NCBI GenBank assembly: GCA_024276655.1
Contig: JAJRWU010000286.1
Span: forward strand, 1-36,691
Source of the DNA: Planctomycetota bacterium
GTDB lineage: Bacteria; Planctomycetota; Planctomycetia; Pirellulales; Pirellulaceae
Length of the DNA stretch: 36,691 nucleotides
Direction of reading: 5' to 3'
The notes below the pieces were generated by a model, which was not told where the DNA came from, searched no databases, and saw nothing but the letters and a program-made list of their open reading frames with translations. Numbering within the stretch: the first letter of the stretch is position 1; each line of letters begins with the position of its first letter. The position numbers and the translations under genes were made by a program. Shown piece by piece: positions 1 to 17,507 of the stretch.

Positions 1-1179
1 CAACTTCAATGTTGAACGCAACATTTTCCAAGCTGGTCGAAACGGCAGCATCCAGCGGTGCTCAAAGAACAGCGAGCCTTCGGTTTCAAAGGCGCTATGC
101 GAGGCAGGCGCGGCTGCCATGAGTTTTTCAAATTCGTCATCGCTGAATCCCAACTTCTTCAATACATAGATCTTGTTTTGTCTTAGTTCGTTCTCCGAAT
201 ACGCCGGCCGCGACAATAACGCCAAAGCGGCTTCACGCGTCAACTCTCCCGTACCAATGAGTGTTGACAAGTGCGCCTTGCGTTTGTCGACGCCGAATTT
301 TGTTGGGAGTACATAATTCTGATAAAACTTGGTGAAGGTCGACTCTCCATGCTTCGTACCGTAGTCTCGCCAACCAAGTTCGTTGCTAATCACGCCAACG
401 GCTTCTTTACGAGAGAATTCGATCAAATCAAGAAATTCCAGAATCTTTATGCCCTTATGAAACGCCTTGCGTTTCTGCTTTCGATCAAATATCGGGTACG
501 ACTTCAGCGGCTTTGTTCCAAACCGCCTGTGGATGTCCCGGAGATTGATATGGTCGCACTTCTGGTAGTGCCAACCACGTGGCATGAAGCCCTCGGTAGC
601 GATATTATTGCCGCCCAATATGAACCGAATGTCATGCTTCAGCGCCGTGCGGTACAGCACGCCATAAATGCCATGATCGGTGGGGACTTCAATATCGATC
701 ACCGAAGCCTTGAAATACGCGCGTTGTAGGTCGCGGAACTCCTCCCAGTCAACCACATAGGTGTGGAGGTCAATATTTAACTTGGAGGTTATCCGCTCGA
801 TATTCTGAACGGCAAGTTCGGAATTCCAACCGTTGTCGAAGTGGACCGCCAACGGGCGCAACCCCAACTGCAGAACTTTCCAAGCCAAATAGGAACTGTC
901 CACGCCGCCGGAAATGCCGATGATGCAATCATACGCTTTCCCTTTTCCGACTTCCTGAATCTCGGCGACGGCTTCCGACAAGGCTTCTTCACGCTGCGTT
1001 CGTCGAGCGAGATGCTGGCCCCAACGTTTCTCGAAATTGCGGCACACGTAGCATATGCCGTCAAGATCTCGCTCCAAATCGGGAACATCAGCAGACGTAA
1101 GAATGCAACGCGAACATGCAACACTGGAACTTGGCTCGTCGCGACGCGAATCTAACGTCGAATTTAGGTTGGACAACAT
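1..1179 (-). CDS. N-acetyl sugar amidotransferase (WbpG/WbuX type), partial at left edge
   Basis: The reading frame is open from an ATG at 1179 to the window edge (393 codons, no stop reached), so the gene is cut at its 3' end. The N-terminus has two CxxC pairs (C22/C25 and C43/C46), typical of the zinc knuckle in this family. A PP-loop SGGVDSS follows at residues 90-96, the ATP-pyrophosphatase motif that adenylates the sugar substrate. Known relatives (WbpG, PseA-like) convert an N-acetyl group to an acetamidino group on nucleotide-linked or lipid-linked sugars, using ammonia from a HisH/HisF-like pair. Such partners are not in the window and could lie beyond the edge. Family members are about 370-390 aa, so little should be missing. 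The start is 3 nt after the stop of the upstream acetyltransferase, so translational coupling is likely. The family is confident; the exact sugar is unknown. Confidence 0.88.
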   Translation of the reverse strand, partial: MLSNLNSTLDSRRDEPSSSVACSRCILTSADVPDLERDLDGICYVCRNFEKRWGQHLARRTQREEALSEAVAEIQEVGKGKAYDCIIGISGGVDSSYLAWKVLQLGLRPLAVHFDNGWNSELAVQNIERITSKLNIDLHTYVVDWEEFRDLQRAYFKASVIDIEVPTDHGIYGVLYRTALKHDIRFILGGNNIATEGFMPRGWHYQKCDHINLRDIHRRFGTKPLKSYPIFDRKQKRKAFHKGIKILEFLDLIEFSRKEAVGVISNELGWRDYGTKHGESTFTKFYQNYVLPTKFGVDKRKAHLSTLIGTGELTREAALALLSRPAYSENELRQNKIYVLKKLGFSDDEFEKLMAAAPASHSAFETEGSLFFEHRWMLPFRPAWKMLRSTLKL

Positions 1180-1182
1180 GCG

Positions 1183-1884
1183 TTAGACTCCAAGTCGGCT
1201 GCGTCGAAAGGCTGGAAATCTACGCTTGGAAACGTATCCGTAGTAGCAAAGCTCATTCTCGAACTGAACACATTCGTCCTTCGCCAATTCCCGGATTTTT
1301 CGAGCTGGTGCGCCAGCAACGACGCAATACCCATCTGGGAATGATCGAGTCACGACCGCATTGGCGCCGACCACGGTAAAATCACCCAGCGTAACTCCCG
1401 GCGTAATAATGCTTCCCATGCCCAGCCAGCAGTACGAACCGATGGTCACACCCGGCGCGCTGTCGTGTCGCCGAAGGTCGGTGGGAACATGGTTTGCGCT
1501 GATGATTCCAACATTCGCCGCGATTTGCGTGTAGTCGCCGATCACCACGGGGCCGATTGCTTGAATGTAACAACCGGGTTCGTAACCTGGAGCCGTATCA
1601 ACACCTATCAAAACGTTTTGAGGCTGGTTGATTCGGCTGCTGAAGTGAACCGGCCAATAGGCTTGACGATTGCAACCTAGAATTTTTTGCCAAAACCAAT
1701 ATCGAAACAAGCAAGGGTTTTGCGCACCAGCGGTTTCCCGAATAAAGCGAAATCCCGGCAACCGTGACGCCATGAAATAGGCCGCTTTACGAATCGCGAC
1801 AAGTGATCGTCGGCTACCAGCAACCATGACGCGGTTGGCCAACGAGCGTTGAGGGAAGGGGATTTCACTGCGTTCCATGTACAT
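1183..1884 (-). CDS. Hexapeptide-repeat (left-handed beta-helix) acetyltransferase
   Basis: A 233-aa protein whose middle and C-terminal parts show hexapeptide-repeat periodicity, with [IV]-G-x4 units such as IGDYTQIAANVG and IGSYCWLGMGS. A histidine in the ISANHVP segment fits the catalytic base of WbbJ/WcaF/maltose O-acetyltransferase-like enzymes. The VVAGAPARKIRE end is the usual closing coil of these enzymes. The role inferred from context is O- or N-acetylation of a polysaccharide building block. The first 14-20 nt overlap the end of the ABC ATPase gene; ATGs at 1884 and 1878 are both possible starts. The amidotransferase gene follows after 3 nt. The fold is confident, the acceptor sugar is not known. 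Confidence 0.85.
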   Translation of the reverse strand: MYMERSEIPFPQRSLANRVMVAGSRRSLVAIRKAAYFMASRLPGFRFIRETAGAQNPCLFRYWFWQKILGCNRQAYWPVHFSSRINQPQNVLIGVDTAPGYEPGCYIQAIGPVVIGDYTQIAANVGIISANHVPTDLRRHDSAPGVTIGSYCWLGMGSIITPGVTLGDFTVVGANAVVTRSFPDGYCVVAGAPARKIRELAKDECVQFENELCYYGYVSKRRFPAFRRSRLGV

Positions 1885-3178
1885 TCAACGCCGGGGTTTT
1901 CCGGCAATTCACTTGCCATTCAAACCGAGGATGGACAACGCCGGACGGCGCCGCTGCTCTCGTCCTACCGAGTTGATTCGCGGATAACTCATCAATCTCG
2001 AAAAAGACTCGATTGCCCGACAAAATATCTCGCTCCAAGGGAACGTCGAAATCGACCGATACCAAATAGCCAAGGCGATTCAACAGGTTCTTCGGAATGA
2101 GACAAATACTCTCATACTCTCCTACCGGACGAGGTGAGTTTTCGGCGGCGGCCGCGATATCGCTGCTCGAGCATACTTCGACGCCATCGGTGGTCATAAG
2201 CAATATCGCGACGCGTAGATTGTAGATCGGCCGTTTTAGTCGATAACGAATTCTGATCTGCACGCTCTCGCCTGTTATCAGATGCGAATCAATGCGACCA
2301 TCCGCATCGCCTACCGAAATTTCGAGAAGCTGAATTTCGTCGTTCTCGGCCGTTTCACATTCGGCGCCGACAAAGACGCGTTGCGTGTGAGCATCACTAC
2401 GCAAATAGGCCCGCACAATATCGGGAGTCTCTCCCCGCATATCGATGGCGCCATTTCGCATCAATACCGACTTGCTACACAACTGTTTCACCGCCCCCAT
2501 GTTGTGGCTCACGAAAAGTATGGTTCTTCCTTGCTCGCGGCTCACATCTCGCATTTTCCCCAGGCAACGATTCTGAAACTCAACATCACCCACCGCCAGT
2601 ACTTCGTCAACGATCAGAATTTCCGGCTCCAGATGAGCAGCGACCGCGAAGGCAAGTCGGACGTACATCCCGGACGAATAGCGTTTGACCGGCGTATCGA
2701 TATACTTGCCACATCCCGAGAAGTCGACGATGTCGTCAAAATGTTTGCGAATTTCGGCGCGAGTCATTCCCAGAATCGCCCCGTTCAGAAAAATGTTTTC
2801 GCGGCCTGTTAGCTCTGGGTGAAATCCGGTGCCGACTTCCAGCAAACTGGCCATCCGACCGTAAGCGGTTATTCTTCCCGTCGTGGGGGCCGTCACGCGA
2901 GACAGCAACTTCAGCAACGTCGACTTCCCCGCTCCATTGCGGCCGATAATGCCTAGAATTTCACCCTGCTGGACTTCCAGGTTGATGTCGCGCAACGCCC
3001 AAACATATTCTCCACCGGCCTCTCGAAGATCATTGCTCTGGCCGACCCTCGCAAACGGGTCTCCTCTGCCGCGAACGCGCGCCCACCAACGATTCAGATC
3101 GTGCGCCAAGGTTCCCGTGCCGACCTGCCCCAGGCGGTACATTTTCGAGACGTTTTCAATGGAAATCGATATGCTCAC
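1865..3178 (-). CDS. Polysaccharide ABC exporter ATPase with C-terminal substrate-binding domain (Wzt-like)
   Basis: An ATP-binding cassette subunit, taken from a GTG at 3178 because the protein then opens with a segment (SISIENVSKMYRLG) that matches Wzt-like N-termini. The frame extends to another GTG at 3277, adding 33 residues that look non-family. Visible motifs are Walker A (GRNGAGKST), the signature YSSGMYVRLAF, Walker B (EILIVDEVLAVGD) and the switch histidine in FVSHNMG. After about residue 265 a separate beta-rich domain of some 150 aa resembles the Wzt C-terminal jelly roll, which in known systems recognises a modified chain end. The permease gene lies immediately upstream. In ABC-dependent O-antigen pathways this pair exports the finished lipid-linked glycan across the inner membrane. 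Confidence 0.92.
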   Translation of the reverse strand: MSISISIENVSKMYRLGQVGTGTLAHDLNRWWARVRGRGDPFARVGQSNDLREAGGEYVWALRDINLEVQQGEILGIIGRNGAGKSTLLKLLSRVTAPTTGRITAYGRMASLLEVGTGFHPELTGRENIFLNGAILGMTRAEIRKHFDDIVDFSGCGKYIDTPVKRYSSGMYVRLAFAVAAHLEPEILIVDEVLAVGDVEFQNRCLGKMRDVSREQGRTILFVSHNMGAVKQLCSKSVLMRNGAIDMRGETPDIVRAYLRSDAHTQRVFVGAECETAENDEIQLLEISVGDADGRIDSHLITGESVQIRIRYRLKRPIYNLRVAILLMTTDGVEVCSSSDIAAAAENSPRPVGEYESICLIPKNLLNRLGYLVSVDFDVPLERDILSGNRVFFEIDELSANQLGRTRAAAPSGVVHPRFEWQVNCRKTPALNVHGTQ

Positions 3179-3333
3179 GACGATATCGAACGATTGAAGG
3201 CGTGTTGTGAATAAGAGATAGTCATCGTTTCGGACAGTAAAGAGTTTGCATGAGCGGACGGAATTGCAACAGAACACAACTCAGCGATCGTTTCTCGCGA
3301 TTCGCTGACACAAATCAGGTCAATGCATCGTCG

Positions 3334-4230
3334 TCAGACAGTATCCATGAAGGTTTTCTCCACCCGGTTAAAAATTACCGCACCGGCGAACATAATGAAC
3401 ACGGCGCAGCATGCGCTGTAGGCCAGACCGCCAAGGCTGTATTGACCTACTCCCAGAAACGCGTATCGAAAGGTTTCGAGGATCGGCGTGAGCGGGTTCA
3501 GCAAAATCAGCCATTGATATTTTTCCGGCAACGTTGACGCCGGGTAGATCACCGGAGTCGCGTACATGGCCAGTTGCACGGCGAATTGCAGGAGGAATCG
3601 CAAATCTCGATACTTTGTTGTCAGTGAACTGATGATCATTCCGAGGCCCAATCCAATACCGGCCATTATTAGAATCAAGACGGGAAACCAAAAGACGGCG
3701 GCATTCATCGCGATTGCATGGCCGGAAAACTTGTAGTACGTCCAGAACACGAGGAACAAAGCAAACTGAACCGCGAACTTGAGCAAGTTCGAGGCGATGA
3801 TCGACAGCGGGACGATGACTCTTGGAAAATAAACCTTGCCAAAGATATTCGCGTTCGCAGTAAATGTCTCGGATGTCTTGGTCAACGATTCAGAAAAGTA
3901 ACCCCAGCATGTGATCCCCACGAGGTAGAACAGTATGGCCGGCAAGCCGTCTGTCGAGAGGCCCGCGATATTCTTGAAAACCAGAGTGAACACCAAGGTC
4001 GTCATGACCGGCTGGATCAAGAACCATATCGGCCCGAGTATCGTCTGCTTGTACAGCGAAACAAAGTCCCGATACACGAGCAGCCACAACAGATCCCGAT
4101 AGCGCCAGACTTCGCGCACATTGAGCGATAGCCAACCTTGCGGGGGGCCGATAACAGTCACCGGTAAACTGGCGTGTGGCGCGACGGCGACGTCGTCTGG
4201 GCGGCAAGTGCTTGTTTCTGCAACAGACAT
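3334..4230 (-). CDS. Polysaccharide ABC exporter permease (Wzm-like, ABC-2 type)
   Basis: A membrane protein of about 298 aa from the ATG at 4230; the frame also opens at a TTG at 4254. It has a cytoplasmic N-terminal stretch and then about six hydrophobic segments. Family landmarks are RDLLWLLVYRDFVSLYKQTILGPIW before the first membrane span, KVYFPRVIVPLS in the middle, and YATPVIYPAS then LLNPLTPILETFRYAFLG near the end. All are typical of ABC-2 permeases that export O-antigen or teichoic acid. The ATPase gene follows at once, so the two subunits should form one exporter. Its presence beside a Wzy-like and a Wzc-like protein is unusual. Confidence 0.92.
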   Translation of the reverse strand: MSVAETSTCRPDDVAVAPHASLPVTVIGPPQGWLSLNVREVWRYRDLLWLLVYRDFVSLYKQTILGPIWFLIQPVMTTLVFTLVFKNIAGLSTDGLPAILFYLVGITCWGYFSESLTKTSETFTANANIFGKVYFPRVIVPLSIIASNLLKFAVQFALFLVFWTYYKFSGHAIAMNAAVFWFPVLILIMAGIGLGLGMIISSLTTKYRDLRFLLQFAVQLAMYATPVIYPASTLPEKYQWLILLNPLTPILETFRYAFLGVGQYSLGGLAYSACCAVFIMFAGAVIFNRVEKTFMDTV

Positions 4231-4320
4231 TTTATGTAGATGGCAAGGAGCCAAAACCGGAAATGGGAAGCGCGACGCCCTTCGGGTTTTGAGCCTTGCG
4301 GTCGTTATTAATTCCCGAAT

Positions 4321-5340
4321 TCAACGAACGCTGATATTAGACGTCGAAGCCAAACACTCTGTTTGGGCGAGCGCTAGGTCGTGATCCACCATGAGGTTCA
4401 CAAGCTGTTCAAAACCGATGGTTGGCGACCAGTTGAGAACCGACCGAGCCTTCGCGGAGTTGCCTCGTAAATCGACGGGATCGGCGGGGCGGCGCAGCCG
4501 GTCGTCGATTTTGACGTAGTTCCTCCAGTTCAAGCCAACTCGACTAAAAGCCGTCTGCAGAAAGTCTTCGATCGAATACGACTTGCCGGTCGCGAGCACA
4601 AAATCGTCGGGGGTTTTCTGTTGCAGCATCAGCCACATGGCTTCCACATAATCCTTGGCGAAGCCCCAATCGCGTTGCACGGCGAGTGACCCCAGATGCA
4701 ACTCCTGCTGAAGACCGAGTTTGATGCGAGCTACGGCGCGGGCGATCTTGCGGGTGACAAAGTTCTCGCCACGACGAGGCGATTCGTGGTTGTAGCAAAT
4801 CGCATTACAGAAGAATAGGCTGTAGGAACGACGGTAAATGCGAACCATTTGCGTGGCGAAAGCTTTTGCACATCCGTAAGGCGACGTTGGATTAATCGGT
4901 GTGTGCTCGTCTTGGGGAGAATCGGTGGGCGTTCCAAAGATTTCGCGAGAACTCGCGTGAAGAAAACGCGGAATCGTTGGCAGGTCGCGTAGCGCTTCCA
5001 TGATCCTGAGCGTTCCCATCGCGGTCAGTTCGCAGGTGCTTTCCGGGATTTCGAAGCTGAGTCCAACATCGCTTTGCCCGGCAAAATGATAGACTTCGCT
5101 GGGGCCGGCCGCAGTCAAAATGCGACGAATCGTCGTTGTATCGGCGAGGTCGGCGCAATGCAAAAAGAGCCGTCGTTCGATTGTTTTCTGATCACCACTG
5201 AGATGGCTAAGGCGTGATTGTTCCCGCGTGCTCGAACGACGCACCAGACCATGAACGACGTACCCCTTAGCGAGCAACAACTCGGCTAGGTAAGAGCCGT
5301 CTTGCCCCGTGATTCCAGTAATGAGTGCGACCTTCCGCAT
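4321..5340 (-). CDS. GDP-mannose 4,6-dehydratase family protein, divergent second copy
   Basis: A 339-aa extended SDR enzyme. The N-terminal nucleotide-binding motif [11 protein letters not shown] is at residues 8-18, and the catalytic YxxxK is in SPYGCAK (Y155, K159). The stretch [19 protein letters not shown] is diagnostic of GDP-mannose 4,6-dehydratases. The active-site loop reads HASSREIFG, where the Gmd domain encoded just upstream has QASSSEMFG. The key glutamate (E133) is kept but one serine is replaced by arginine. It is clearly a paralogue of the Gmd half of the 5431-7509 fusion. It may be a redundant dehydratase, or it may feed another GDP-6-deoxy sugar such as rhamnose or 6-deoxy-talose; the sequence does not decide. 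A 90-nt gap separates it from the fusion gene, on the same strand. Confidence 0.88.
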   Translation of the reverse strand: MRKVALITGITGQDGSYLAELLLAKGYVVHGLVRRSSTREQSRLSHLSGDQKTIERRLFLHCADLADTTTIRRILTAAGPSEVYHFAGQSDVGLSFEIPESTCELTAMGTLRIMEALRDLPTIPRFLHASSREIFGTPTDSPQDEHTPINPTSPYGCAKAFATQMVRIYRRSYSLFFCNAICYNHESPRRGENFVTRKIARAVARIKLGLQQELHLGSLAVQRDWGFAKDYVEAMWLMLQQKTPDDFVLATGKSYSIEDFLQTAFSRVGLNWRNYVKIDDRLRRPADPVDLRGNSAKARSVLNWSPTIGFEQLVNLMVDHDLALAQTECLASTSNISVR

Positions 5341-5430
5341 CGAATCTTAGAGTGTCCTGTTTTCTATTGGTTCAGACGCCGCCGCGGTTCGCGACGAACG
5401 CTTTCGAGCCACGTTTCACGGCGCCGTTGC

Positions 5431-7505
<2,075 letters not shown>

Positions 7506-7509
<4 letters not shown>

Positions 7510-8786
7510 GTCGGCTGGCTTTTCAACGTTGTTTCAGCGAATGTCGGGCGTGACGTCGGTTCGAGGATTTGCCGAATCATCTGGCGGAAGCGATCGACGC
7601 CGACCGGGCGATCAAAGGATTCGACAGCCAATGCGCGGGCTCTTTCTCCCACCCCATCGAAGTCGTCGCGGCGATCGAAAAACCAAGCGATCTTTTCGGC
7701 CAGCTTTTTCGGCTGGTCGGGTTCAACGTTGGCGCCAACTTGTTCGCGAGTCGTCAGTTTCGCTAGTTCGCTATCTTCCGGCGCAACCGTTAAAATGGGC
7801 GTCGCGGAGGCTAACGCACCGTACAATTTGCTCGGCATCAGGTAGCGACTGACGCGAGCGTCTACCGGAACCAAATGGATATCCGCAGCGCTGAGGCTTT
7901 CGCCAAGCCTCTCAAACGGTTGATAGTCGACGAATCGGATGTTCGATAGTTCGCATCGTTCGGCTTGTTCCAAGAGATGCTTTTTGGCGGCTCCGTCGCC
8001 GACCAACAGGAAAACAATGTCTTCTCGATTCTTGAGTTGCTCGGCGGCCTGGAGGATATTATGCAGTCCTTGGCACTGGCCAAGGTTTCCGGAATACATG
8101 ACGACGAATTTGTGGTTCAATCCAAGCTCGGTGCGAAACGCGTTGTTTCTCTTCGCGGGTCCGATTTTCGCAACGTCGACCCAGTTCGGAATCACATCAA
8201 TGGAATCGGGCGGCACATCGGCTTCCAATACGACATCGCGCATGTCATCACTGAGAACGACGACGCGGTTTGCGGTGCGGTAGGCGGCGGCGAAGCGACG
8301 CTCAAGCAGCTTTGTAATCCAATTGTCGGGCAGCTTGCCCAGCGCCACCGCCAATTGGGGGTAGATGTCTTGCAGATAGACGACCGACTTGCAGCGAAAA
8401 CGCCATTTTATCCACCCGCCCAGGAGGCAAAGCATTGGCGGGTCGGACTCGACGACGACGACATCAGGCCGTTTCGCCGTTAGTGAAGCGAAGGCGGCGC
8501 TGACCAGAAAACTAATATAGTTTATCGCTCGCCCCACAAACGACGACTTGCGAAACGTCGTATGCCAGACACGCCGAATCTCGACGCCGTTGTGAAAATC
8601 TGACCCCCAGCGACGAAAACTAGTCTGCTGAAGATTTCGATTCGGCTGTCCGGCAATCACACTGATTTCAAACTCTTCGGCAAGGTCCTCGCAGAGTTGC
8701 GTGAGCAGTTGCCCAGTTGCCTCGACATCAGGATAGTAGGAGCGATTGATGAACATGATTCGCTTACGAGTCGCGGATGAGGTCAT
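7506..8786 (-). CDS. WcaI-like family 4 glycosyltransferase
   Basis: A GT-B fold glycosyltransferase of about 426 aa from the ATG at 8786; a GTG at 8831 would add 15 residues. The N-terminal domain opens with [19 protein letters not shown], close to the start of the colanic acid enzyme WcaI. The C-terminal nucleotide-sugar domain contains [16 protein letters not shown] and the acidic E-x7-E region near [23 protein letters not shown]. The likely role is to transfer one sugar, plausibly fucose given the adjacent gene, to the lipid-linked repeat unit on the cytoplasmic face. It lies between the NusG-like gene and the Fcl-Gmd fusion, and overlaps the latter by 4 nt. Donor and acceptor cannot be read from the sequence. 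Confidence 0.88.
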
Positions 8787-8843
8787 TTCTAGCTCGAGTG
8801 GGACCGCGACTTGACGAGAGCGGAGAACCACCTCTCGGCCATC

Positions 8844-9497
8844 CTAGCGAGGGTTGTAGACAACATCGATGGAGCCTTTGGTTGTTTCGGGCGCGTCAAC
8901 CAGGGCGGAGGCGGGCGCCAGGTACTCGAGTTGGCAGTCGTCTAATTCCACCGAGGCGCCTTGTTGCATGAAATTGACCGCGACGATCAATCGTGATTTT
9001 CCTTGACGTCGAGTGACGACGCCCTCAAAGCTGGCGAATTTCCCAGTTTTCACTCGCACCAAATCGCCCGCGACAAGCCTCGCTTCGCGAGAAAGCGGTT
9101 CGCCCGTTTCGATCAGCCGTTGGATATGCGCCAAGTCTTGCGTGAGTTGGAGGCCATCGCTGACTTGTCGGCACTGCGAAATGCAATTGGTGGTTTGTGC
9201 CGCGTATCGGTCGAGTACGTTGCCGTAAACAAACACGTAGTTGGAAAACAGCGGATCATACACACGGCGAATTCGGCCAGCCTTCGAGCGATAGCGGCGT
9301 TCGATCGTGGGGCAGCAGAAAGCAACTTCCAACACCTCCAACTTCCGCATCAACTGTTTCTCCTGACGCGACCGCGTATACATCGCCCACCAACGCGGCG
9401 ACTCCTCCGTCAGAGGACCATCGTTGGAAAGTTCCGCCTCCGCTTGCGCCAAAAGATCATTGGGAAAGAGACTGGTTTCTTGTTTGAGGATCGGCAT
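8844..9497 (-). CDS. NusG/RfaH-like specialised transcription elongation factor
   Basis: A 217-aa protein with a NusG N-terminal domain at about residues 35-135. It begins WWAMYTRSRQEKQLMRKLE and includes DPLFSNYVFVYG, the equivalent of the LFPGYLFV core of NusG. A KOW domain follows at about 141-192 (VAGDLVRVKTGKFASFEGVV). Both ends carry short extensions absent from housekeeping NusG. Specialised paralogues such as RfaH, UpxY and LoaP sit in polysaccharide loci and suppress termination in long operons. The position here, first gene of the distal block of a 17-kb glycan locus, fits that role. A 25-nt element at 9550-9574, shared with the wzc leader, lies 52 nt before its start. No clear Shine-Dalgarno site is visible before the ATG. 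Confidence 0.85.
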   Translation of the reverse strand: MPILKQETSLFPNDLLAQAEAELSNDGPLTEESPRWWAMYTRSRQEKQLMRKLEVLEVAFCCPTIERRYRSKAGRIRRVYDPLFSNYVFVYGNVLDRYAAQTTNCISQCRQVSDGLQLTQDLAHIQRLIETGEPLSREARLVAGDLVRVKTGKFASFEGVVTRRQGKSRLIVAVNFMQQGASVELDDCQLEYLAPASALVDAPETTKGSIDVVYNPR

Positions 9498-9549
9498 CTT
9501 GTTGCGAAGCTAGGTGTTTATAACCGTGAGGAGAATCGTTGTGTGCGCA

Positions 9550-9574
9550 CACTCCGTGCCCTTGGGTGACACAC
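9550..9574 (-). promoter_or_regulatory. Leader element, copy 1 (shared with 14668-14692)
   Basis: This 25-nt stretch matches 14668-14692 at 22 positions and lies 52 nt upstream of the NusG-like gene in a 228-nt gap. Read on the minus strand it begins GTGTGTCACCCA and ends ACGGAGTG. It is flanked by a perfect 12-bp palindrome gtgtgcgcacac at 9541-9552. It could be an antiterminator recruitment site (ops-like) or an operator. The function is inferred; the repetition is seen. Confidence 0.5.
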
Positions 9575-9725
9575 GGTCAACCCGAATTCTCGCCGAAATA
9601 GGATCTGTCCCAACAAACGTACGGCAGCCGACACACCATTCAACAGTAGTTCGATTTTGAGCAGTTGAAAGAATAAACGTCATGGTTAGGTGGGAATTAA
9701 AAAAGTTGCCGGCGTTGAGATCGAT

Positions 9726-11282
9726 TCAATCGTGGTGTTGCTCTTTCGCCGAAACATCCAGCGCTGGAATCAGCACCCTTTCCCCTGCTTCTGGGGTGTG
9801 TATATCGTTCGCCGTTGCCTCGCTCCCTAGTTCGAGCAAGTCGGACAAGTGTGCTTCGACGGGGCGCAGGCCAGCAATTAAATCACTCATCGCCTCGAAG
9901 ATGTTTACGTTTTCCGAAGTGCCGCTCAGGCGGAGCCTGCCGACCGCCATATCGCGAACCAGGAGCGGAATATCGGAACGCCAAATTTTGGCTTCATTCA
10001 TTTCAGCGTCACGGCGCCGCCAGGAGGCATGGAATTCCTCGCCCATCCCTGGCAGGCTGACATTTAAGTGAATGGAGTCCAGGTCGAGGCGTTCGGCGTA
10101 GGTTGTGAGCATCTCCCAGAGGTCTTCCCACTGCCGGGTTCCGCACAACCGTGTTTGGACGTTATGATCCGTCCTGGCGTTTTTATCGGAAAACGAGGGT
10201 GTCAACGATTTTACCAGCCCTAGCACGCGTTTCCCCAGCAACACGCATTCGTGGCGTCCGAAGAGCCGCGTCACGATGAGCACGGAACAGACGGCGACGA
10301 TTGCGGCGTAGGCCAGCAGCTCGTCTTTCATGTACACGCTTAACGCCGCCCCCACCGCCGTGACACAGCACAACGCCCCGACGACGAGGAGAATTTTCCG
10401 ATCACTAAAACCGTGTTGCTGCAAACTATGGTGAAGATGCCCGCGGTCGGTCACGTAGAGGCTGCGGCCGGTCAGTTTTCTTCGCAGTATGGCCATCGCG
10501 ACGTCGAACACGGGGACGGCCCAAATGGCGGTTGGCGCCGCCAGAACGACTGACGCCGGCCCCTTGAGCGAACTACGAATGGCCAAAGCCCCCAGAACGA
10601 GCCCGATAATCATGCTGCCGGCGTCGCCTAGGAAAATGCTCGCCGGCGGGCGATTATAAACCAGAAACCCTGTTAAGGATCCGGCCAGAGCCAAAGCCAG
10701 AAACGCCTCCGTTACATGCCCCGTAAGACTCGCCATGACGGCTATCGCGAGGCTCAGTATGATGCCAATGCTGGTCGCCAATCCGTCCATCCCGTCGAGG
10801 AGATTGACCGCGTTGATAGCGCCCAGGATCCAAAACAACGTGAGCGGCGCCGACAGAACGCCCAGTTCAAACATCACTCCAAAAATTTGCACACGCTGTA
10901 TGATCAGGCCCGACGCTAACAAGATCATCGCGGCCACGACCTGACCGGCCAATTTCTGGCGGCCGCGCAAGCCGAAGCGGTCGTCAACCAAGCCGATAAG
11001 ACACAAGACCGTTGCCGATGAGAGCATGCCCGCCAGGAAAATGGCGTTGCTTGTCACCTGCGACCTTTGGGAATCGGAACAGAACACCGCCGCCATGGTT
11101 GCGATAACGAATGCTATCAAAACCGCCACGCCGCCCCCAAGAGGAGTCGCCTCCTTATGGAGCTTGCGGTGCTCGTTCGGGTGGTCGACGATATTCCACC
11201 GTCTGGCCAAGCCCCGCACCCAAGGCGTCAGTAGCAGGCAGGCGACAAACGCGGTAAGAAATGTTCCGAAAAGCAGTTTCAT
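9726..11282 (-). CDS. WecA/MraY-type undecaprenyl-phosphate sugar-1-phosphate transferase with C-terminal extension
   Basis: The first about 345 residues form a polytopic polyprenyl-phosphate transferase with the family motifs in order: the VDDR aspartates (D100, D101), NLLDGMDG (residues 160-167), YNRPPASIFLGDAGS (D220) and HLHH at 282-285. Such enzymes load GlcNAc-1-P or a related sugar-1-P onto undecaprenyl phosphate and so start the repeat unit. The protein is 518 aa where WecA homologues are about 350. The extra soluble stretch of about 165 aa (EDLWEMLTTYAERLDLDSIHLNV and onward) follows the last membrane span and matches no family I recognise. It might be a regulatory or docking domain. 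The gene lies 62 nt downstream of the CpsB-like phosphatase. Confidence 0.9.
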   Translation of the reverse strand: MKLLFGTFLTAFVACLLLTPWVRGLARRWNIVDHPNEHRKLHKEATPLGGGVAVLIAFVIATMAAVFCSDSQRSQVTSNAIFLAGMLSSATVLCLIGLVDDRFGLRGRQKLAGQVVAAMILLASGLIIQRVQIFGVMFELGVLSAPLTLFWILGAINAVNLLDGMDGLATSIGIILSLAIAVMASLTGHVTEAFLALALAGSLTGFLVYNRPPASIFLGDAGSMIIGLVLGALAIRSSLKGPASVVLAAPTAIWAVPVFDVAMAILRRKLTGRSLYVTDRGHLHHSLQQHGFSDRKILLVVGALCCVTAVGAALSVYMKDELLAYAAIVAVCSVLIVTRLFGRHECVLLGKRVLGLVKSLTPSFSDKNARTDHNVQTRLCGTRQWEDLWEMLTTYAERLDLDSIHLNVSLPGMGEEFHASWRRRDAEMNEAKIWRSDIPLLVRDMAVGRLRLSGTSENVNIFEAMSDLIAGLRPVEAHLSDLLELGSEATANDIHTPEAGERVLIPALDVSAKEQHHD

Positions 11283-11344
11283 GTCAGCAAATTAAAGAGG
11301 TAAAGGCAAGGAATCGCGCTCTCGATGTTCGACGGCAAATGCAA

Positions 11345-12118
11345 TTACGTTCGAGTAAACCAGCGACGTTTTCGCGGACGGGGACGAGGCGTCTCGATCG
11401 GCAGGCCCTCAAGAACCGCCATGCCATTGATGCTGCAAATTCGGTCCGCCTTCGCCCAGTCGGACCACTCGGCAAGCCGCCCGTAGGCGGCCGAAACGCC
11501 AGGAGGCCGGCGTGTGGGTGAATGTCCGTCCGATGCGATGAGGTGAATGATGTCGCGGCGAACCCACGAGCGAAGACCTTCAGTTACCCGCGAATTACCG
11601 TTTTGCGTGATGCTGGCGGCTGACACTTGAATCAGGCAGCCTCGCTGTATCAATTCTTCCACAACGCCAGCGCCATGCAAAAGCTCGGGGTGACGTTCCG
11701 GATGCACCAGAATGGGCCGCACGCCCAACCCCAGCAAGCGAGTCACCATGTCGCGTAGATCGAGGAACATTCCTGAAGGTAGTTCGACCAGTAGGTAGCA
11801 GCCCAGGTTCGAGACGGAAAGCAGCCGCCCGCATTCAAAATCTGATTCAATCTCGGGACCGATCATCACTTCGGCCGCTGGATACACTTCCAACGGAATT
11901 TTCTCTGCTTCGAGCCGCCTACGTAGTTCGATGGTTGCTTCGAGAATTCGTTGAGGCGTGACTTCTGGCCACCGAGGATTCTGATGGGCTGTTGCGGCAA
12001 TCGCCCGGACGCCGTCGTCCCAGGCGATACGACACATGGCGACCGCTTGTTGCCAGTCTTGCGGGCCATCGTCCATCCCGGCCAATAAGTGACAATGGAC
12101 ATCAGCCAGCGGGATCAC
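11345..12118 (-). CDS. CpsB/YwqE-type tyrosine-protein phosphatase (PHP family)
   Basis: A 257-aa PHP-fold metalloenzyme with its metal-binding set visible: DVHCHLL (H8, H10), TAH (H45), an AAE segment near E83, HPERH (H139) and ASDGH (D197, H199). It begins at a GTG, since the first family residues (IPLADVHCH) follow directly. CpsB/YwqE enzymes dephosphorylate the tyrosine cluster of BY-kinases and so cycle Wzc-type co-polymerases. The gene sits 63 nt downstream of the wzc-like gene, the usual partner arrangement. The C-terminus is arginine and proline rich. The assignment is strong from motifs and context. Confidence 0.9.
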   Translation of the reverse strand: MIPLADVHCHLLAGMDDGPQDWQQAVAMCRIAWDDGVRAIAATAHQNPRWPEVTPQRILEATIELRRRLEAEKIPLEVYPAAEVMIGPEIESDFECGRLLSVSNLGCYLLVELPSGMFLDLRDMVTRLLGLGVRPILVHPERHPELLHGAGVVEELIQRGCLIQVSAASITQNGNSRVTEGLRSWVRRDIIHLIASDGHSPTRRPPGVSAAYGRLAEWSDWAKADRICSINGMAVLEGLPIETPRPRPRKRRWFTRT

Positions 12119-12181
12119 AGCGAATGAAATTCTCGTTCAAGGTCTGAAATGGGGGTCTAGAAACGCGTTGGCGTCCACGAA

Positions 12182-14503
12182 TCAATGTTTCCCGTTATTA
12201 CGATGCACCGGCGCCTTGTTTTCAGTTTCGTCGGCTTCTTCCGATTCGTCGAGGTAGTCGCTGCGGTCGTCGCCATAGCCGTTGGCATCGCGGTATTCGT
12301 AGCCATATTTGGAACCGTAGCCGTAGCCGTAGGAGGATCCGTAACCGTTTTTGCTACTGCCGTAGGCACCGTATTGCTGCCCTTTCCCGACGCCGTTGAC
12401 AACAACACCGAGAACGTTGCCGCCAACTTCTTCCAGGGCGTCGAGGGTTTGGCGGGCGGCGGCGCGCGCGTTTTTCGACAACCTCAGTACGAGCAGAACG
12501 CCATCGACGCGCGGCGCCACGTTAAGCGGATCTGTCACCGCCATAACCGGCGGCGTGTCGACAATGACGATATCAAACTTCTCGCGAAACAACTCCAAGA
12601 GCTCTTCGAAGCGTTGCGAGGTCAGCAGTTCTGACGGTTGTTTTGGGCGTTTGCCGCACGTCAGTGCGCTCAGATTCTCGATCTCGGTGGCCTGCACCGC
12701 GTCGAGCCACTCGACGGAATCTTCGATCACGTTCGCCAATCCTAGGTCGTTTTTGAGCCGCAACAGCTTGTGACAGCGAGGTCGACGAAAATCGGCGTCG
12801 ACCAACAAGACCCGTTTACCCGAATGGGCGATTGAAACAGCAAGATTGGCGGCCAGCGTTGTCTTTCCATCTCCAGGAGTTGGACTCGTGACTTGAATCA
12901 CCTGAGGGCCTCCCCCTCGCGTGCTGAAATAGATCGCGGTTCGCACGGCGCGGTAGGCTTCGGCGATCCGACCACGCGGGGCATGCACAGTGCGAAGCTC
13001 CATTGGCAAGCCGGCGTCGGACGTCTTCGAGCTCTTGCCCGACTTCCCTCTCGCTTTGGCTCCGGGAATCTGGGGGATATGGCCAACCACCGGTAGGCCG
13101 AGATCGTTGCGAATTTCATCGGGGCTTCTAAATCGACGGTCGGCGGCGTCCACTAGGAAGGCCAGTCCGAGACCAACCAATATGCTGAGCACGCTGGCTG
13201 TCAGCATCGTCGACTGTAGGTTGGGTTGAATCTGTCGGCCTAATCCGGGCGGGTGGATGGTTTGAATTTCCGCGCCGCCCCGACCTTTCACCAAGCTGAT
13301 TTCCTCCAAGCGTTTGAGCACCACGTCGAAGAGTCGCGACTTTCGCCCGATCTCGGAGCGGAACATCTCTTCTTGGTCTTGGTAGGTCGAGAGCCCCTTG
13401 GCCGATTCGCGTTCGGCATCGAACAACGCTGTCATTTCAGCAATGGTCTTCTCGTTGATCTTGGTCTGCTCGATCAGCGACTGGAGATAAATCTCGGTAA
13501 AATCAGCCCCGGCGGGCTGCGCATCGGCGTCGGGGCGCCCTGGTTGGTCCAGCCCGAAATGCTTTCGCACAAGAGCGATACGGTTGGCGATCGCCTTCAC
13601 TTTTGGGTGGTCGGCGCCGTGCGTTTCCAGGAGCGACTGTTGTTCCAGCGCCAGCACAAACAACTGATCACGCCCCTTCGGTTTTCCACCGGGTTGCTCG
13701 TTGACATTTTCAAAACTGCCAACCATGAGGTTCAAAGCCTCACGACTGCCGCCGCGAGCCAACGCTTCCTGAAACGCCTCGATTTTCGCGTGCAGCACTG
13801 AGTTTTCCAGCACGACTGCGGAACGTTCGTCTTCAATCCGCTGCAATCGCATCTCATGGATATTGTGTGCCGTCTCGCCGGTGACGAGCAGCGGCGAACT
13901 GTCTCGCATTTTTCGATAGTCGCGTTCCAAGGCAGTGATCTGAGTCTCGAGCTCTTCTTTTGCCTTTCCGATCAGTTTGATCGTCTCCTGATTGACGTCC
14001 TCGTACATGTCGCTGAGGAACTGGTCATAGGCGGTAACGACGGCTTGCAACACCATCGCGCATTCGTCCCGGTCGGGGCTATTATAAGACAGTTGAATAA
14101 TCGTGGCTTTCATATTGCCGCCACCGGTAACCGTTAGTCTCGACAAGATCGTCGCCGCAGGATTCACGGAGCCGCGCAACGCGGCGAGTTGGCCAAGATT
14201 TCCCACCTCGACCGCTTTCTCGATAACGCTTTGGCTGCGCATCAGCGTGACGTGCATCTCTTCAGACGACGAATGCATCTCAAATCCATCAATGGGCAGT
14301 CTCTGTTGCTCTTCGATGACCACGACCTGCGTCGTTGATTGATACAGCGGATCCTGCCGCAGGAAGTACAAATAGCCCAACCCAAGACCCACCATCAGCG
14401 ACAAGACTACAAGCCCCTTGCGCCGCCACGCGAATGCCAGCGTCGACCCGACGCCCTCCGCAGTTTCCGGACTGAATTCAAATGTCTGTGGATTCTGTTC
14501 CAT
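12182..14503 (-). CDS. Wzc-type polysaccharide co-polymerase with tyrosine autokinase
   Basis: A 773-aa inner-membrane protein. A Wzz-like module has a first membrane span at about 31-47 and a second at about 432-452, with long helical periplasmic segments between. The BY-kinase domain follows: Walker A TPGDGKTT (542-549), Walker A' VLLVDADFRRP (565-575) and Walker B IVIVDTPP (645-652). The last 65 residues hold a Gly/Tyr-rich tail with eleven tyrosines between Y711 and Y750, the expected autophosphorylation cluster. These proteins set chain length and couple polymerisation to export. A good Shine-Dalgarno site (AAAGGA) precedes the ATG. A phosphatase gene follows after 63 nt. The 232-nt leader carries copy 2 of the shared 25-nt element. 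Confidence 0.95.
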   Translation of the reverse strand: MEQNPQTFEFSPETAEGVGSTLAFAWRRKGLVVLSLMVGLGLGYLYFLRQDPLYQSTTQVVVIEEQQRLPIDGFEMHSSSEEMHVTLMRSQSVIEKAVEVGNLGQLAALRGSVNPAATILSRLTVTGGGNMKATIIQLSYNSPDRDECAMVLQAVVTAYDQFLSDMYEDVNQETIKLIGKAKEELETQITALERDYRKMRDSSPLLVTGETAHNIHEMRLQRIEDERSAVVLENSVLHAKIEAFQEALARGGSREALNLMVGSFENVNEQPGGKPKGRDQLFVLALEQQSLLETHGADHPKVKAIANRIALVRKHFGLDQPGRPDADAQPAGADFTEIYLQSLIEQTKINEKTIAEMTALFDAERESAKGLSTYQDQEEMFRSEIGRKSRLFDVVLKRLEEISLVKGRGGAEIQTIHPPGLGRQIQPNLQSTMLTASVLSILVGLGLAFLVDAADRRFRSPDEIRNDLGLPVVGHIPQIPGAKARGKSGKSSKTSDAGLPMELRTVHAPRGRIAEAYRAVRTAIYFSTRGGGPQVIQVTSPTPGDGKTTLAANLAVSIAHSGKRVLLVDADFRRPRCHKLLRLKNDLGLANVIEDSVEWLDAVQATEIENLSALTCGKRPKQPSELLTSQRFEELLELFREKFDIVIVDTPPVMAVTDPLNVAPRVDGVLLVLRLSKNARAAARQTLDALEEVGGNVLGVVVNGVGKGQQYGAYGSSKNGYGSSYGYGYGSKYGYEYRDANGYGDDRSDYLDESEEADETENKAPVHRNNGKH

Positions 14504-14667
14504 GGTTTCCTTTGCCTCTACTCGCGATTGAGTTGGCGCCTCTTCAAACGCCCAACACGTATCTAGGTGTCGCCGAAGGTGGGTGAACGTCGCGGGGATT
14601 CAGCCATCGCACAATCTCAGACGACTTCCGCCACTGTTCCAATCAAGCCGCAACTGTTGTCGGCGCG

Positions 14668-14692
14668 CACTCCGTTCCTCTGGGTGACACAC
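14668..14692 (-). promoter_or_regulatory. Leader element, copy 2 (shared with 9550-9574)
   Basis: This is the second copy of the 25-nt element, 164 nt upstream of the wzc-like ATG in a 232-nt gap. On the minus strand it can fold a small GGGTG-TGT-CACCC hairpin at its 5' end, weaker in copy 1. A TTGA tetranucleotide lies just before both copies on the minus strand. The location in the leader of two blocks of the same locus suggests co-regulation; this is inference. Confidence 0.5.
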
Positions 14693-14735
14693 CCATTCAA
14701 ATTCGCACGCACTACGCCATGAGCCTGGCGGCCCG

Positions 14736-17507
14736 TCAACGCAGGCGGGTGCGATTAAGCTGTCGCAGTAGAACATCGTATTGTTCATTTCTTGGATCCA
14801 TCCTCACGCACGTCCTGGCGTGTTTCCACGCTCCTTCAATGTCCCCTTGCTTTTGCAAGAGGGTCGCTAGTTCGTAATGCCATGCGGTCATCTGCGGGCG
14901 TTCGGCAACGGCCAACCGCAGAGACTTGATGGCCTCGTCATCCCGCTCCAAGAGGGCGTAAATCGCACCTTCCAACTGATGACGTTCAGCCGGTTCCAAC
15001 GCGGCGCCGGGCAAGAGACTCTTGGCCCGATCCAACAGCGCCAGCCGCATCGGCTGATTTTCTCGAAAAGCCTCGCTATTCGCCGCTTGCACGAGCACAC
15101 GGGGAGAGTTTGGCGCGATTGCTTTCACAATGGATACCGGCTCATCGAACAAGGCGGCCAGTTGCAGCGCTGCCGGCAATCTTGCCGGGTCGATTTCCAC
15201 CATGCGTCGCATGGTCGTGATGGCGTCTTCCACCCGCTCGGCCTGCAATTGGACAATCGCGCACTCGTATAATATTTGTGTATTTCCGCCAGCCAGAAAC
15301 GGCAGCCGAGACAACCAAGCCTCTGTCGTGGCATTTGGCGATACGATCGGGGCGACCTCCGCCAACAGTAAGCGCGCCCTCGGCAAGAGTGCGCAACCGC
15401 AAACGGCCTTCAAAAGGGCTCTGGAAGCGTTTCTGAGGTCGGTTTGAACCATTTCGCTTCGACGCAGGTTTTCCAACTCAATCGTTCGCTCTTGGTTGGC
15501 GTAACGGTAAACGGCGCCATGCACCGCTAGTGGCGTTGTGATCGCCCACATTTCGTCGACCTTCGTTCGGTCTGGGGTTTGCGATTGAAGTTCCATCAAG
15601 GCGCGTAAGCGATAACGTTGAATCCACAGCTGTGCTAGTCTCTGTTGCCCCTCTGCATGCCCAGGTTTTTTAGCCAACGCCGAACGCAACTGGCTGATCT
15701 GGCTGGTCACGGAGGCGATCGTTACGCCGTCGTGCGAATCAACATTTCGGCTCTCGCCGAGAGCCGTTTCCACGGCCAGACAGTTATTGAGATCGACCGC
15801 TCCCAACAGCAACGCGCAGAACAAGAGGGCGGCGAAACCCACTTGCAAGTCGGCGCGACGAAAGAATTCCGCAACCCTTTCCCGCCAACGACTTGAACTT
15901 GGCCCTCGCAGCGCGCTAGCGCCCGCCACGACTCCGCACAGCAACGCGAAGAGAGCCGTATTGGCCGGCAGGTAAAGGCCGAAATCGAACAGGGAGGATA
16001 CTGCCTGGCTTACCAACGCGTAAACTCCCACGATGCCGCAGATGCGCCGCTCTCGGTTGTCGTCGCGCAGGAGGGTTCGACAGGCGGCGGCGACGGTTCC
16101 AATGGCCGCCAACAGCAGCGCCAGCCCCAGAACCCCGCCTTCACAAAATGCTTCTACGTACTGATTCTCAGCGTGGTAAAACAAAACGCGATCCGTGGCG
16201 GAATAAGGCCGATACACATGACGATAAGTTCCCAGTCCGCTGCCAAAAATCCAAAAATCACTACCCGCGCGCAAGCCGTCGCTCCAGTGCGCCAGCCTGC
16301 TATTGGAAGGGTCGGCGAATTCCGCCTGCAGCGACTCCCAACGCGCGCCAACCAACTCCGTTCGACCCAGCCAGTCGACAAGTCCAAACCCCAACACGGC
16401 AACCACGACCAGCGTCCCCGCCACCTGTGCAATACGTTTGTTGGCGGACAAAATCGTGGCCACGACCGCTGTCGACAACAGCATGGCCACCCATGCCCCG
16501 CGGGAAAGCGTGCAAATCAAGCCGGCGAAGATCAACACAACCATCGCCAACGCCAGCAGCTTTCTCCCATCTAGTTGCGGTACTTCGTTTCCGACGCGCT
16601 GAAAAACTCGTACAAGCCAACTCGAACCCTGCCGAGCCCGAGGTGGGGAATTCGCTTGGTCCGCCTGAGAGAACGCATACAAGGCGAAACCAATGGCGGT
16701 GGCCAGACACAGATTCAAATACCCGCCTGCGTTGTTACGGTTAACGAAGGCGGCAAAAGGGCTGCCGCCCTGCGTAAGTGGAACGCTCCCGTAGATCTGC
16801 CCGTTCCAGACCAACTGCTGGGCGATGCCGAAGAAGGCGAACAGCGCGCCATTTGCCGCAACCACGCCAAATAGTAGGCGTTGCCATTTACGCCGGCTAA
16901 ACAGCTGGCTCGCTAAGAAGAATATGGTAACTGCGATCAGCAACATAATGACATCGCGTCGAGTGGACTGAGGATAAAGACTAATCGTCGATTCGTTGGA
17001 TATCGCAGCTTCGCCAACATCTACGGCAAACGCCTCTTTGTTCGCAGTCGCTTCAGGCGAAGCGTCGGTCCACAATGCATGAGAGCGCCGAGATACGCCA
17101 GCCAGCGATTCTCCCAGCGGCAACTGCTGAACAACCCCCAACACGATCGCCAACAACAGCGGAACAAGCGTCAACGGCAGGCCGCCGCAACGTTTGGGCG
17201 ACACCGCAATCCGGACAAGAATCGTTGCCAATACGCAGCCAACCAAGAGAAGTTGACTCGACGTACGCACCCCTCCGAATAACCAGGGCAACACAGCGAT
17301 TGCCGCGACAAATGGCAGCATGCCGACAAGTTCCCACCCAGCAACACTGGACGAATGAGCGCCGACGGTAGGCGACTGTCTTTCCTCTCGACAAGCCACA
17401 ATATCTGCTCCGACGATACTTAAACCCACGCATCCTTGTGCAATTTCAGCAGCCTTGCCGGATCCCCTATTCCAGAGTTGGTTATGGGTGAATTTCAATT
17501 GTAACAA
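14736..17507 (-). CDS. O-antigen ligase/polymerase (Wzy/WaaL-type) with C-terminal TPR region
   Basis: A 923-aa protein whose first about 540 residues are polytopic. It shows the Wzy_C/O-antigen ligase hallmarks FVNRNNAGGYLN and a large loop ending HVYRPYSATDRVLFYHAENQYVEAFCEGG. The C-terminal part, about 600-923, is soluble and alpha-helical with TPR-like repeats such as ALLERDDEAIKSLRLAVAERP and WHYELATLLQKQGDIEGAWKHA. Such proteins polymerise or transfer lipid-linked glycans at the periplasmic face. The start is uncertain: the full frame opens at a TTG (17507), a GTG at 17429 is another option, and the first clear membrane segment begins near residue 60. It is the first minus-strand gene of the locus and ends in a 232-nt gap before wzc. 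Confidence 0.85.
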   Translation of the reverse strand: MLQLKFTHNQLWNRGSGKAAEIAQGCVGLSIVGADIVACREERQSPTVGAHSSSVAGWELVGMLPFVAAIAVLPWLFGGVRTSSQLLLVGCVLATILVRIAVSPKRCGGLPLTLVPLLLAIVLGVVQQLPLGESLAGVSRRSHALWTDASPEATANKEAFAVDVGEAAISNESTISLYPQSTRRDVIMLLIAVTIFFLASQLFSRRKWQRLLFGVVAANGALFAFFGIAQQLVWNGQIYGSVPLTQGGSPFAAFVNRNNAGGYLNLCLATAIGFALYAFSQADQANSPPRARQGSSWLVRVFQRVGNEVPQLDGRKLLALAMVVLIFAGLICTLSRGAWVAMLLSTAVVATILSANKRIAQVAGTLVVVAVLGFGLVDWLGRTELVGARWESLQAEFADPSNSRLAHWSDGLRAGSDFWIFGSGLGTYRHVYRPYSATDRVLFYHAENQYVEAFCEGGVLGLALLLAAIGTVAAACRTLLRDDNRERRICGIVGVYALVSQAVSSLFDFGLYLPANTALFALLCGVVAGASALRGPSSSRWRERVAEFFRRADLQVGFAALLFCALLLGAVDLNNCLAVETALGESRNVDSHDGVTIASVTSQISQLRSALAKKPGHAEGQQRLAQLWIQRYRLRALMELQSQTPDRTKVDEMWAITTPLAVHGAVYRYANQERTIELENLRRSEMVQTDLRNASRALLKAVCGCALLPRARLLLAEVAPIVSPNATTEAWLSRLPFLAGGNTQILYECAIVQLQAERVEDAITTMRRMVEIDPARLPAALQLAALFDEPVSIVKAIAPNSPRVLVQAANSEAFRENQPMRLALLDRAKSLLPGAALEPAERHQLEGAIYALLERDDEAIKSLRLAVAERPQMTAWHYELATLLQKQGDIEGAWKHARTCVRMDPRNEQYDVLLRQLNRTRLR

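Follow-up and report, generated by a model that had tools for sequence, protein, structure and literature searches.

A short oriented element in two putative leaders of a planctomycete glycan locus

A stretch of 36,691 nucleotides (nt) from a Planctomycetota bacterium (GCA_024276655.1, contig JAJRWU010000286.1, positions 1 to 36,691; hereafter the window) raises the question of what role may be played by a short sequence that recurs, in one orientation, ahead of a NusG-like gene and of a wzc-like gene in the same glycan locus. The initial annotation of this DNA had proposed that it could be the site of an antitermination circuit that includes its own factor. Comparison of planctomycete genomes supports this proposal by the genome-wide co-occurrence of element and factor, the glycan operons that follow, and the probable position of the element in leaders. 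In the leaders of long glycan operons, the element is probably where a planctomycete NusG paralogue is recruited; the effects proposed for it, from pausing and protein binding to recruitment, antitermination and the sign of regulation, are what we infer from these observations.

Two 25-nt copies had been reported in the window, and both were found in the same orientation, on the minus strand, at 9550-9574 and 14668-14692; a recount returned the reported identity at 22 of 25 positions. By the list of open reading frames (ORFs) they lie inside gaps of 228 nt (9498-9725) and 232 nt (14504-14735), in agreement with the claimed length of about 230 nt, and their neighbours are as described, the first copy preceding the NusG-like ORF and the second the wzc-like ORF. 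For both copies the minus strand is the sense strand of the genes that they precede. A pattern covering the two copies is expected 0.00 times in shuffled window sequence, and the 25-mer at up to 3 mismatches occurs at just these two sites in the 5.96-Mb genome of the host.

Alignment of the sites found in other genomes redefined the core of the element as 27 nt, TGTCACCCANNNGNACGRAGTNCGCGC, slightly shifted from the 25-mer and followed by a weak CGA tail. Across 163 non-redundant sites (183 before thinning; the cassette-array loci of Rubripirellula obstinata, described below, were excluded) most core columns are near-invariant and each of the 40 columns upstream holds 0.00-0.19 bits, which marks it as a discrete element rather than a piece of a longer conserved leader. 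The TTGA that had been noticed upstream of each window copy falls in these columns and does not belong to the conserved element. Under the new definition copy 1 (TGTCACCCAAGGGCACGGAGTGTGCGC) occupies 9545..9571, 47 nt ahead of the start codon of the NusG-like gene, and copy 2 (TGTCACCCAGAGGAACGGAGTGCGCGC) occupies 14663..14689, 159 nt ahead of that of the wzc-like gene, both on the minus strand.

Distribution and co-occurrence with a NusG paralogue

The distribution of the element was surveyed in 396 genomes of the order by using either a strict pattern at up to 3 mismatches or a 30-position covariance model at E<=0.01. The strict pattern matched in 126 genomes and the model in 142, with 1-7 copies per genome by the model, R. 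obstinata apart. Occurrence at random sites genome-wide, an outcome that the initial annotation held to speak against its proposal, was not seen, the reversed-pattern controls giving 0 in the rows of this survey. When 84,980 species of bacteria and archaea were scanned for exact matches to the IUPAC pattern, 112 stretches were returned, and all of the 80 that were listed bear planctomycete labels (among them Rhodopirellula, Rubripirellula, Stieleria, Roseiconus, Roseimaritima, Schlesneria, one Kuenenia and many metagenome-assembled genomes). With a looser pattern, 53 genomes of a phylum-wide draw of 392 had matches; those with 0-1 mismatches were confined to the class, and those beyond the class had 2-3 mismatches and stood alongside 16 control rows.

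The element accompanies the paralogue. Relatives of the window protein at E<=1e-15 are present in 208 of the 396 genomes of the order, mostly one per genome (two matches in 16 of the 208). Co-occurrence, which the initial annotation proposed to check, was seen, since these include nearly all genomes with the element: the paralogue was found in 136 of the 142 genomes with a model match and in 72 of the 254 without one, leaving 6 genomes with the element alone and 182 with neither (Fisher p 9e-44, a value that ignores relatedness). By the strict pattern, 120 of 126 element-bearing genomes have the paralogue, and the remaining six are G222, G284, G286, G304, G327 and G337; by the model the same six recur with G155 in place of G284, whose match (locus L064) has 3 mismatches, lies deep within a gene and is probably due to chance.

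Outside the order, 36 genomes of the class from the 392-genome draw were compared (protein at E<=1e-6, element at up to 3 mismatches). The paralogue was present in 8 of 10 genomes with an element match versus 7 of 26 without one, and in all five genomes with a 0-1-mismatch element; in one class genome, G601, a 3-mismatch element lies 26 nt ahead of the paralogue match. A first subsample had given 8 of 8 versus 3 of 12 and the remaining genomes lowered the association, so that the link outside the order is weaker, yet holds. Our assessment of the recruitment model is unaffected by it, because that assessment rests on the order.

The idea that the gene of the factor bears its own site also extends well beyond the window. 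A NusG domain was found in 26 of the 122 first genes downstream of the element, and among 38 paralogue loci picked independently of the element (two short ones being passed over) a copy with up to 3 mismatches lies in the 600 nt upstream of 13, or of 11 out of 35 when three repeat copies of a locus are set aside. Reversed and reverse-complement controls at the same 38 loci and the same threshold gave 0 matches.

The proposed factor is a NusG-like (RfaH/UpxY-type) paralogue of 217 amino acids encoded at 8844..9497 on the minus strand. Its membership of the NusG superfamily follows from a match to PF02357 (NGN) with E 7.3e-09 and 36.5 bits versus a gathering threshold of 22.2, and the KOW domain, at 21.3 bits, falls marginally under its cut-off of 22.3; the window paralogue and the housekeeping NusG are the two NusG matches in the host genome. 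The protein stays below the cut-offs of TIGR01955 for RfaH (56.5 versus 144.5 bits), NF033641 for LoaP (35.0 versus 125), and NF033644 for UpxY (77.3 versus 100, with 71.4 and 73.3 for two relatives), the last being its best-scoring NCBIfam model; the cut-off of the NusG model was likewise not reached. In an AlphaFold2 model (predicted local distance difference test, pLDDT, 90.6; predicted template modelling score, pTM, 0.84) an NGN domain is joined to a KOW domain that forms a beta-barrel rather than an alpha-hairpin, this being one static model that is compatible with fold switching. A structure search returned 9 PDB chains at E<=0.001, every one NusG or RfaH, with TM-scores of just 0.28-0.42 over the whole two-domain query. 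Most paralogues among 23 aligned sequences share the N-terminal signature MPILxxEPDxFPxxLL, which reads MPILxxExxxxPxxLL in the window protein; this N-terminal extension is ordered in the model (pLDDT 81-98).

A predicted regulon of surface glycan operons

Genes around the sites were called by our own script and not by a standard gene finder, which applies to all counts of orientation, strand steps and in-gene sites. In a set of 147 sites, again without the R. obstinata arrays, the next gene lies on the same strand in 136 cases and on the opposite strand in 2, and the end of the locus is reached in 9; the median distance from element to gene is 128.5 nt. Over a run of up to 8 genes that begins with the first one, 462 of 477 gene-to-gene steps stay on the same strand, compared with 126 of 189 steps in random stretches of 20 element-bearing genomes.

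A same-strand gene lies within 600 nt of 123 sites, which gave 122 first genes after removal of one duplicate. The 25 listed of their 81 families, which overlap, include Epimerase (26), Polysacc_synt_2 (18), UDP/GDP-sugar dehydrogenase (8), ABC-2 exporter (7), Wzz (6) and exosortase (5), as well as sugar-nucleotide dehydratases, bacterial tyrosine kinases (BY-kinases), glycosyltransferases and NusG. Genes 2-5 encode epimerases, glycosyltransferases, cytidylyl- and nucleotidyltransferases and similar proteins (9 of 130 sampled genes were excluded, namely 4 from the window, 1 for NusG, 1 that was very long, and duplicates or first genes). Among 118 random genes from 20 element-bearing genomes (4 of 122 were dropped for length), each of these families has at most one member, as judged from the top 25 of 206 families listed, the last of which has 1. 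The expectation that related genomes carry the element upstream of glycan operons is therefore borne out, first genes being mostly glycan or NusG genes, and the predicted regulon is mainly one of surface glycan.

These data bear on a plain operator, in which a DNA-binding repressor or activator of the glycan genes would occupy the element; this was the main alternative of the initial annotation. An inverted repeat, TGGGTG..CACCCA, does span the 5' edge in part of the sites, as such a protein might require. However, the element is asymmetric and its orientation is fixed (136 of 138), the left arm of the repeat is conserved neither in sequence nor in spacing, unlike a dimer half-site, and no DNA-binding regulator family is found among the 25 of 81 first-gene families listed. 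We consider an operator highly improbable.

In the window, the first gene after copy 2 is the Wzz/BY-kinase (wzc-like) gene at 12182..14503, and glycosyltransferase family 4 and CpsB/CapC genes follow it at 9726..12118. Profile matches to the window proteins place further co-directional glycan genes after copy 1, at 1183..8831, with glycosyltransferase, GDP-mannose-dehydratase/epimerase, ABC-2 transporter, Wzt-type ATPase and hexapeptide transferase types. All of these genes are on the minus strand.

Position behind promoter-like sequences

Promoter-like sequences were counted as matches to TTGnnn-15..19-TAnnnT around 156 sites and compared with dinucleotide-preserving shuffles. The region -200..0 upstream of the element holds 50 matches versus 22.6 expected (standard deviation, sd, 4.3), whereas there is no enrichment downstream (18 versus 17.9) or on the opposite strand (17 versus 21.4). 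This two-box count is the later form of the test; an earlier and cruder promoter score showed no difference upstream, and TATAAT-like hexamers form merely a loose bump at -180..-120. Enrichment upstream on the element strand together with its absence downstream suggests that the element lies in the transcribed leader. Most likely it stands behind a promoter and is not itself one, and the arrangement that the initial annotation saw as damaging to its proposal, an element upstream of the transcription starts, is not what these matches indicate. Upstream of copy 1 there is a weak candidate promoter, TTGAAT-16-TACGTT (9616..9643, minus strand), which could be due to chance; the same string was picked up by the promoter scan in a locus of the same genus (L009). 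As a separate observation, runs of at least 5 T number 13 in the bin -20..0 and 1-10 in the other bins of the 156 sites.

The same counts can be set against the idea that the element is a promoter for an alternative sigma factor, either of the extracytoplasmic function (ECF) type with TGTCAC as its -35 box or sigma54, which would drive the glycan regulon. The element does lie upstream of operons in a fixed orientation, GC is present at positions 24-25 in 161 of 163 sites, and the sigma54 frame GG-N10-GC fits positions 12-13 and 24-25, copy 1 agreeing with the consensus at 2 mismatches. Yet the window holds 16 sigma54-type fits versus 25 expected by chance, the would-be spacer positions 13, 15-17 and 19-21 are near-invariant, and sigma70-like matches are over-represented ahead of the element on the strand that it occupies. 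Moreover, the linked regulator is a NusG paralogue, with no sigma-factor or helix-turn-helix family among the 25 of 81 first-gene families listed. Such a promoter is highly improbable on this evidence, and its sigma54 form was rejected: the GG and TTGC boxes of sigma54 promoters are taken to be invariant, and here GG at 12-13 is found in only 106 of 163 sites and TTGC at 22-25 in 0 of 163.

Potential hairpins of the element

The conserved core has a potential for pairing at positions 13-23, G-N-A-C-[G(A/G)A]-G-T-N-C, whose loop and closing pair read C-GNA-G in all but two of the 163 sites (161); as DNA, this motif makes a minihairpin of unusual stability. Watson-Crick pairing is found for positions 13-23 in 159, 15-21 in 161 and 16-20 in all of the 163 sites. 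The pair 14-22 is variable, being G-C in 68 sites, C-G in 11, A-T in 1, A.G in 59 and others in 24, and the G..C and C..G versions coexist in one genome (G362). A covariation count identified a single pair with changes on both sides, and 48 of its 101 cells were non-standard.

A second hairpin may join the core to its 5' flank. The 18-nt upstream flank plus TGTCACCCA folds at a mean of -6.42 kcal/mol versus -4.04 (sd 0.17) with shuffled flanks, and at -3.03 to -3.75 with flanks from further away. Swapping the flanks among sites gave -5.99, and such a partial loss of the energy effect is expected if the right arm is constant. A test for contiguous helices was weaker than the energy test (3.91 observed versus 3.49, sd 0.07). 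The left arms (for example TGGGTG, GGGTG, GGTGA and GGGGAC) lie at varying distances from the core; since they are complementary and yet unconserved, they are easier to reconcile with a nucleic-acid structure than with the half-site of a protein. For copy 2 of the window, of which the initial annotation had noted that it can form a small hairpin, the left arm TGGGTG (14690..14695, minus strand) is indeed complementary to CACCCA (14681-14686) across a TGT loop and could form the 5' hairpin, whereas a folding program favours a different pairing.

These folds leave room for a leader element that works purely at the level of RNA, either as a LoaP-like hairpin, with the paralogue bound to RNA instead of non-template DNA, or as a cis-acting processive antitermination RNA like EAR. 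The folding energy of the flank with TGTCACCCA and the complementarity between variable left arms and the conserved right arm are in its favour, and the available text of PMC12691694 describes binding of LoaP to a leader RNA hairpin. On the other hand, a strong 5' hairpin is found in just part of the sites; terminator-like sites occur in 1 of 102 leaders (40-500 nt), a chance level given 0-3 in five shuffles, whereas the dfn leader of LoaP has a terminator; and a search of the region 9001-15200 with 4227 Rfam models found no match at E up to 5. A purely RNA-level element, which overlaps the recruitment model, is thus possible but has somewhat less than an even chance.

Integron cassettes carrying the element

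R. obstinata (G281) departs from the other genomes in having 43 copies by the strict pattern, within integron cassettes. It encodes an integron integrase (427.8 bits, above the curated cut-off), and has contigs full of attC-like repeats GGATAAC...GTTATCC, whose consensus has a DNA fold with a z-score of -4.2. An attC-like repeat lies within 150 nt downstream of 28 of the 31 testable elements, at exactly 29 nt in 27 cases. With up to 5 mismatches allowed, the element is held by 28 of 96 cassettes on 8 contigs (loci L114-L116, L180, L195, L211, L244 and L247). These cassettes are mostly about 332 bp long (outliers 268 to 3473), have a mean identity of 80% (minimum 48%), and contain no ORF of constant size. 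In 32 cassette copies TTGCTT is conserved and is followed, after a 17-nt spacer of greater variability, by an extended -10 sequence TGcTACgaT, from which the start of transcription is predicted at about 8-10 nt before the element. Judged by sequence, the ORF-poor unit of about 332 bp, which joins a promoter-like sequence to the element, is probably a repeated regulatory cassette, and it hints at a way in which long cassette arrays poor in promoters might be transcribed. Element copies also adjoin attC-like repeats in G364 (L117) and G304 (L094:953-979), and the copy in G304, a genome without a paralogue match, may be cassette-borne.

Abundance of this kind, in one genome and inside mobile cassettes, is what a mobile or repeat-derived sequence (integron or repetitive extragenic palindromic, REP-like) with no regulatory role might show. 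The 1-7 copies of other genomes nevertheless stand ahead of functionally coherent operons, their flanks are unconserved, and the element accompanies the paralogue, so we give this explanation hardly any credence.

A model for recruitment of the paralogue

In the proposed mechanism, RNA polymerase would start upstream of the element, transcribe it, and slow down or pause there. The exposed element would then load the paralogue by the C-GNA-G minihairpin of the non-template strand (positions 13-23) in the transcription bubble, by the nascent RNA, or by both. The paralogue would remain on the polymerase in place of the housekeeping NusG and thereby allow it to cross a long multi-gene glycan operon, avoiding early (Rho-type) termination. 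Where the element also precedes the paralogue's own gene, as in many genomes, the circuit would be able to feed back on itself.

Several observations weigh against this model. The paralogue is found without a model match in 72 of the 208 genomes of the order that have it; it may use another or a diverged site there, or the search may have been too strict. Conversely, 2 of the 10 class genomes with the element outside the order, each at 3 mismatches, have no paralogue match. Among the 147 sites, 11 lie inside a called gene, 3 of them deep and 8 within 53 nt of a called edge; the latter may be start-codon errors, and once all 11 are removed the next gene is co-directional in 128 cases and opposed in 2, with 6 locus ends. 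The promoter-like enrichment is not sharply placed, since the overlapping region -300..-100 is also rich in matches (30 versus 18.6, sd 4.1). Proof of pairing in the minihairpin is partial, since at the pair 14-22 Watson-Crick combinations are found in 80 of 163 sites while 59 have A.G. As for the 5' hairpin, it is seen as a tendency, with at least 5 contiguous pairs in 46 of 163 sites versus 12-22 of 163 for three flanks further up, and RNA folds of the whole element in six examples are unremarkable (z-scores -0.3 to -2.8).

A more elaborate version can be offered on geometrical grounds. While the bubble contains the minihairpin, a 5' hairpin that extends to position 8-9 would be at the RNA exit, and the two could act jointly. 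One paralogue would then read a two-part signal, an exit-channel RNA hairpin with a free left arm in the nascent RNA and a non-template DNA minihairpin, combining LoaP-like and ops-like recognition in a lineage-specific system, and in R. obstinata the ORF-poor cassettes, which would bring the signal together with a promoter of their own at intervals of a few cassettes, would re-arm the polymerase along the array. Taken together, this version is speculative and rather unlikely.

Our search of the literature, which covered subscription journals thinly, returned no account of a NusG-paralogue regulon in planctomycetes, and the accessible portion of PMC12316311, on sigma54 regulons, contains nothing on a planctomycete antitermination system. 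If the recruitment model is correct, it would define a NusG-paralogue regulon with its cis-element, by which glycan and some exosortase operons could be found class-wide with a simple search. It would also add a further recruitment code for NusG paralogues, with a bearing on how these proteins gain sequence specificity.

Comparison with known systems

By the features compared here the system would act like RfaH/ops, and by the tested criteria its protein stands outside RfaH, LoaP and UpxY. Among leader elements of glycan operons, EAR of the Bacillus eps operon, a structured RNA of larger size, has been proposed to bring about processive antitermination of exopolysaccharide genes. The likeness to EAR lies in the position ahead of glycan operons and the difference in the absence of any Rfam family match in 9001-15200.

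The RfaH/ops system of Enterobacteria is similar in that a NusG paralogue is paired with a short oriented element ahead of long surface-polysaccharide operons, and with hardly any terminator-like sites the leaders come closer to the RfaH case than to that of LoaP. The sequence of the planctomycete element is unrelated to ops and has 27 nt versus 12: ops, with the consensus GGCGGTAGNNTG, is nowhere matched exactly in the window, and neither leader matches it at 1 mismatch. Elsewhere in the window, GGCGGTAGNNTG-like strings with 1 mismatch number 9 versus 2.1 expected, possibly a matter of codon usage (Gly-Gly). The non-template strand of ops forms a mini DNA hairpin with the pair C3:G8 and the loop G4-A7 (available text of PMC5995543), to which the minihairpin proposed here can be compared. 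The same text gives H20, R23 and Q24 as the ops contacts of RfaH, and in a hand count on the HMMER alignment these fall on k, a and l of the profile; the loop contacts of RfaH are thus not kept, and a different code would be read. Further differences are the KOW domain, modelled as a beta-barrel and not as an alpha-hairpin in one static model, and the presence of the element ahead of the paralogue's own gene in many genomes.

LoaP and its dfn hairpin in Bacillus likewise represent a NusG paralogue that reads a leader element, possibly an RNA hairpin in the planctomycetes as well. In the accessible part of PMC12691694 the dfn element is described as a UNCG hairpin whose leader also contains an intrinsic terminator. 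Here a GNA loop is proposed instead, and terminator-like sites are no more frequent than expected by chance, unlike in a LoaP leader. UpxY of the Bacteroides capsule operons is the nearest model by score and also a NusG paralogue of capsule-type operons. Each UpxY activates its resident operon (PMC7593976, in the portion available); in the planctomycetes, a mostly single paralogue would serve several operons by means of a common element.

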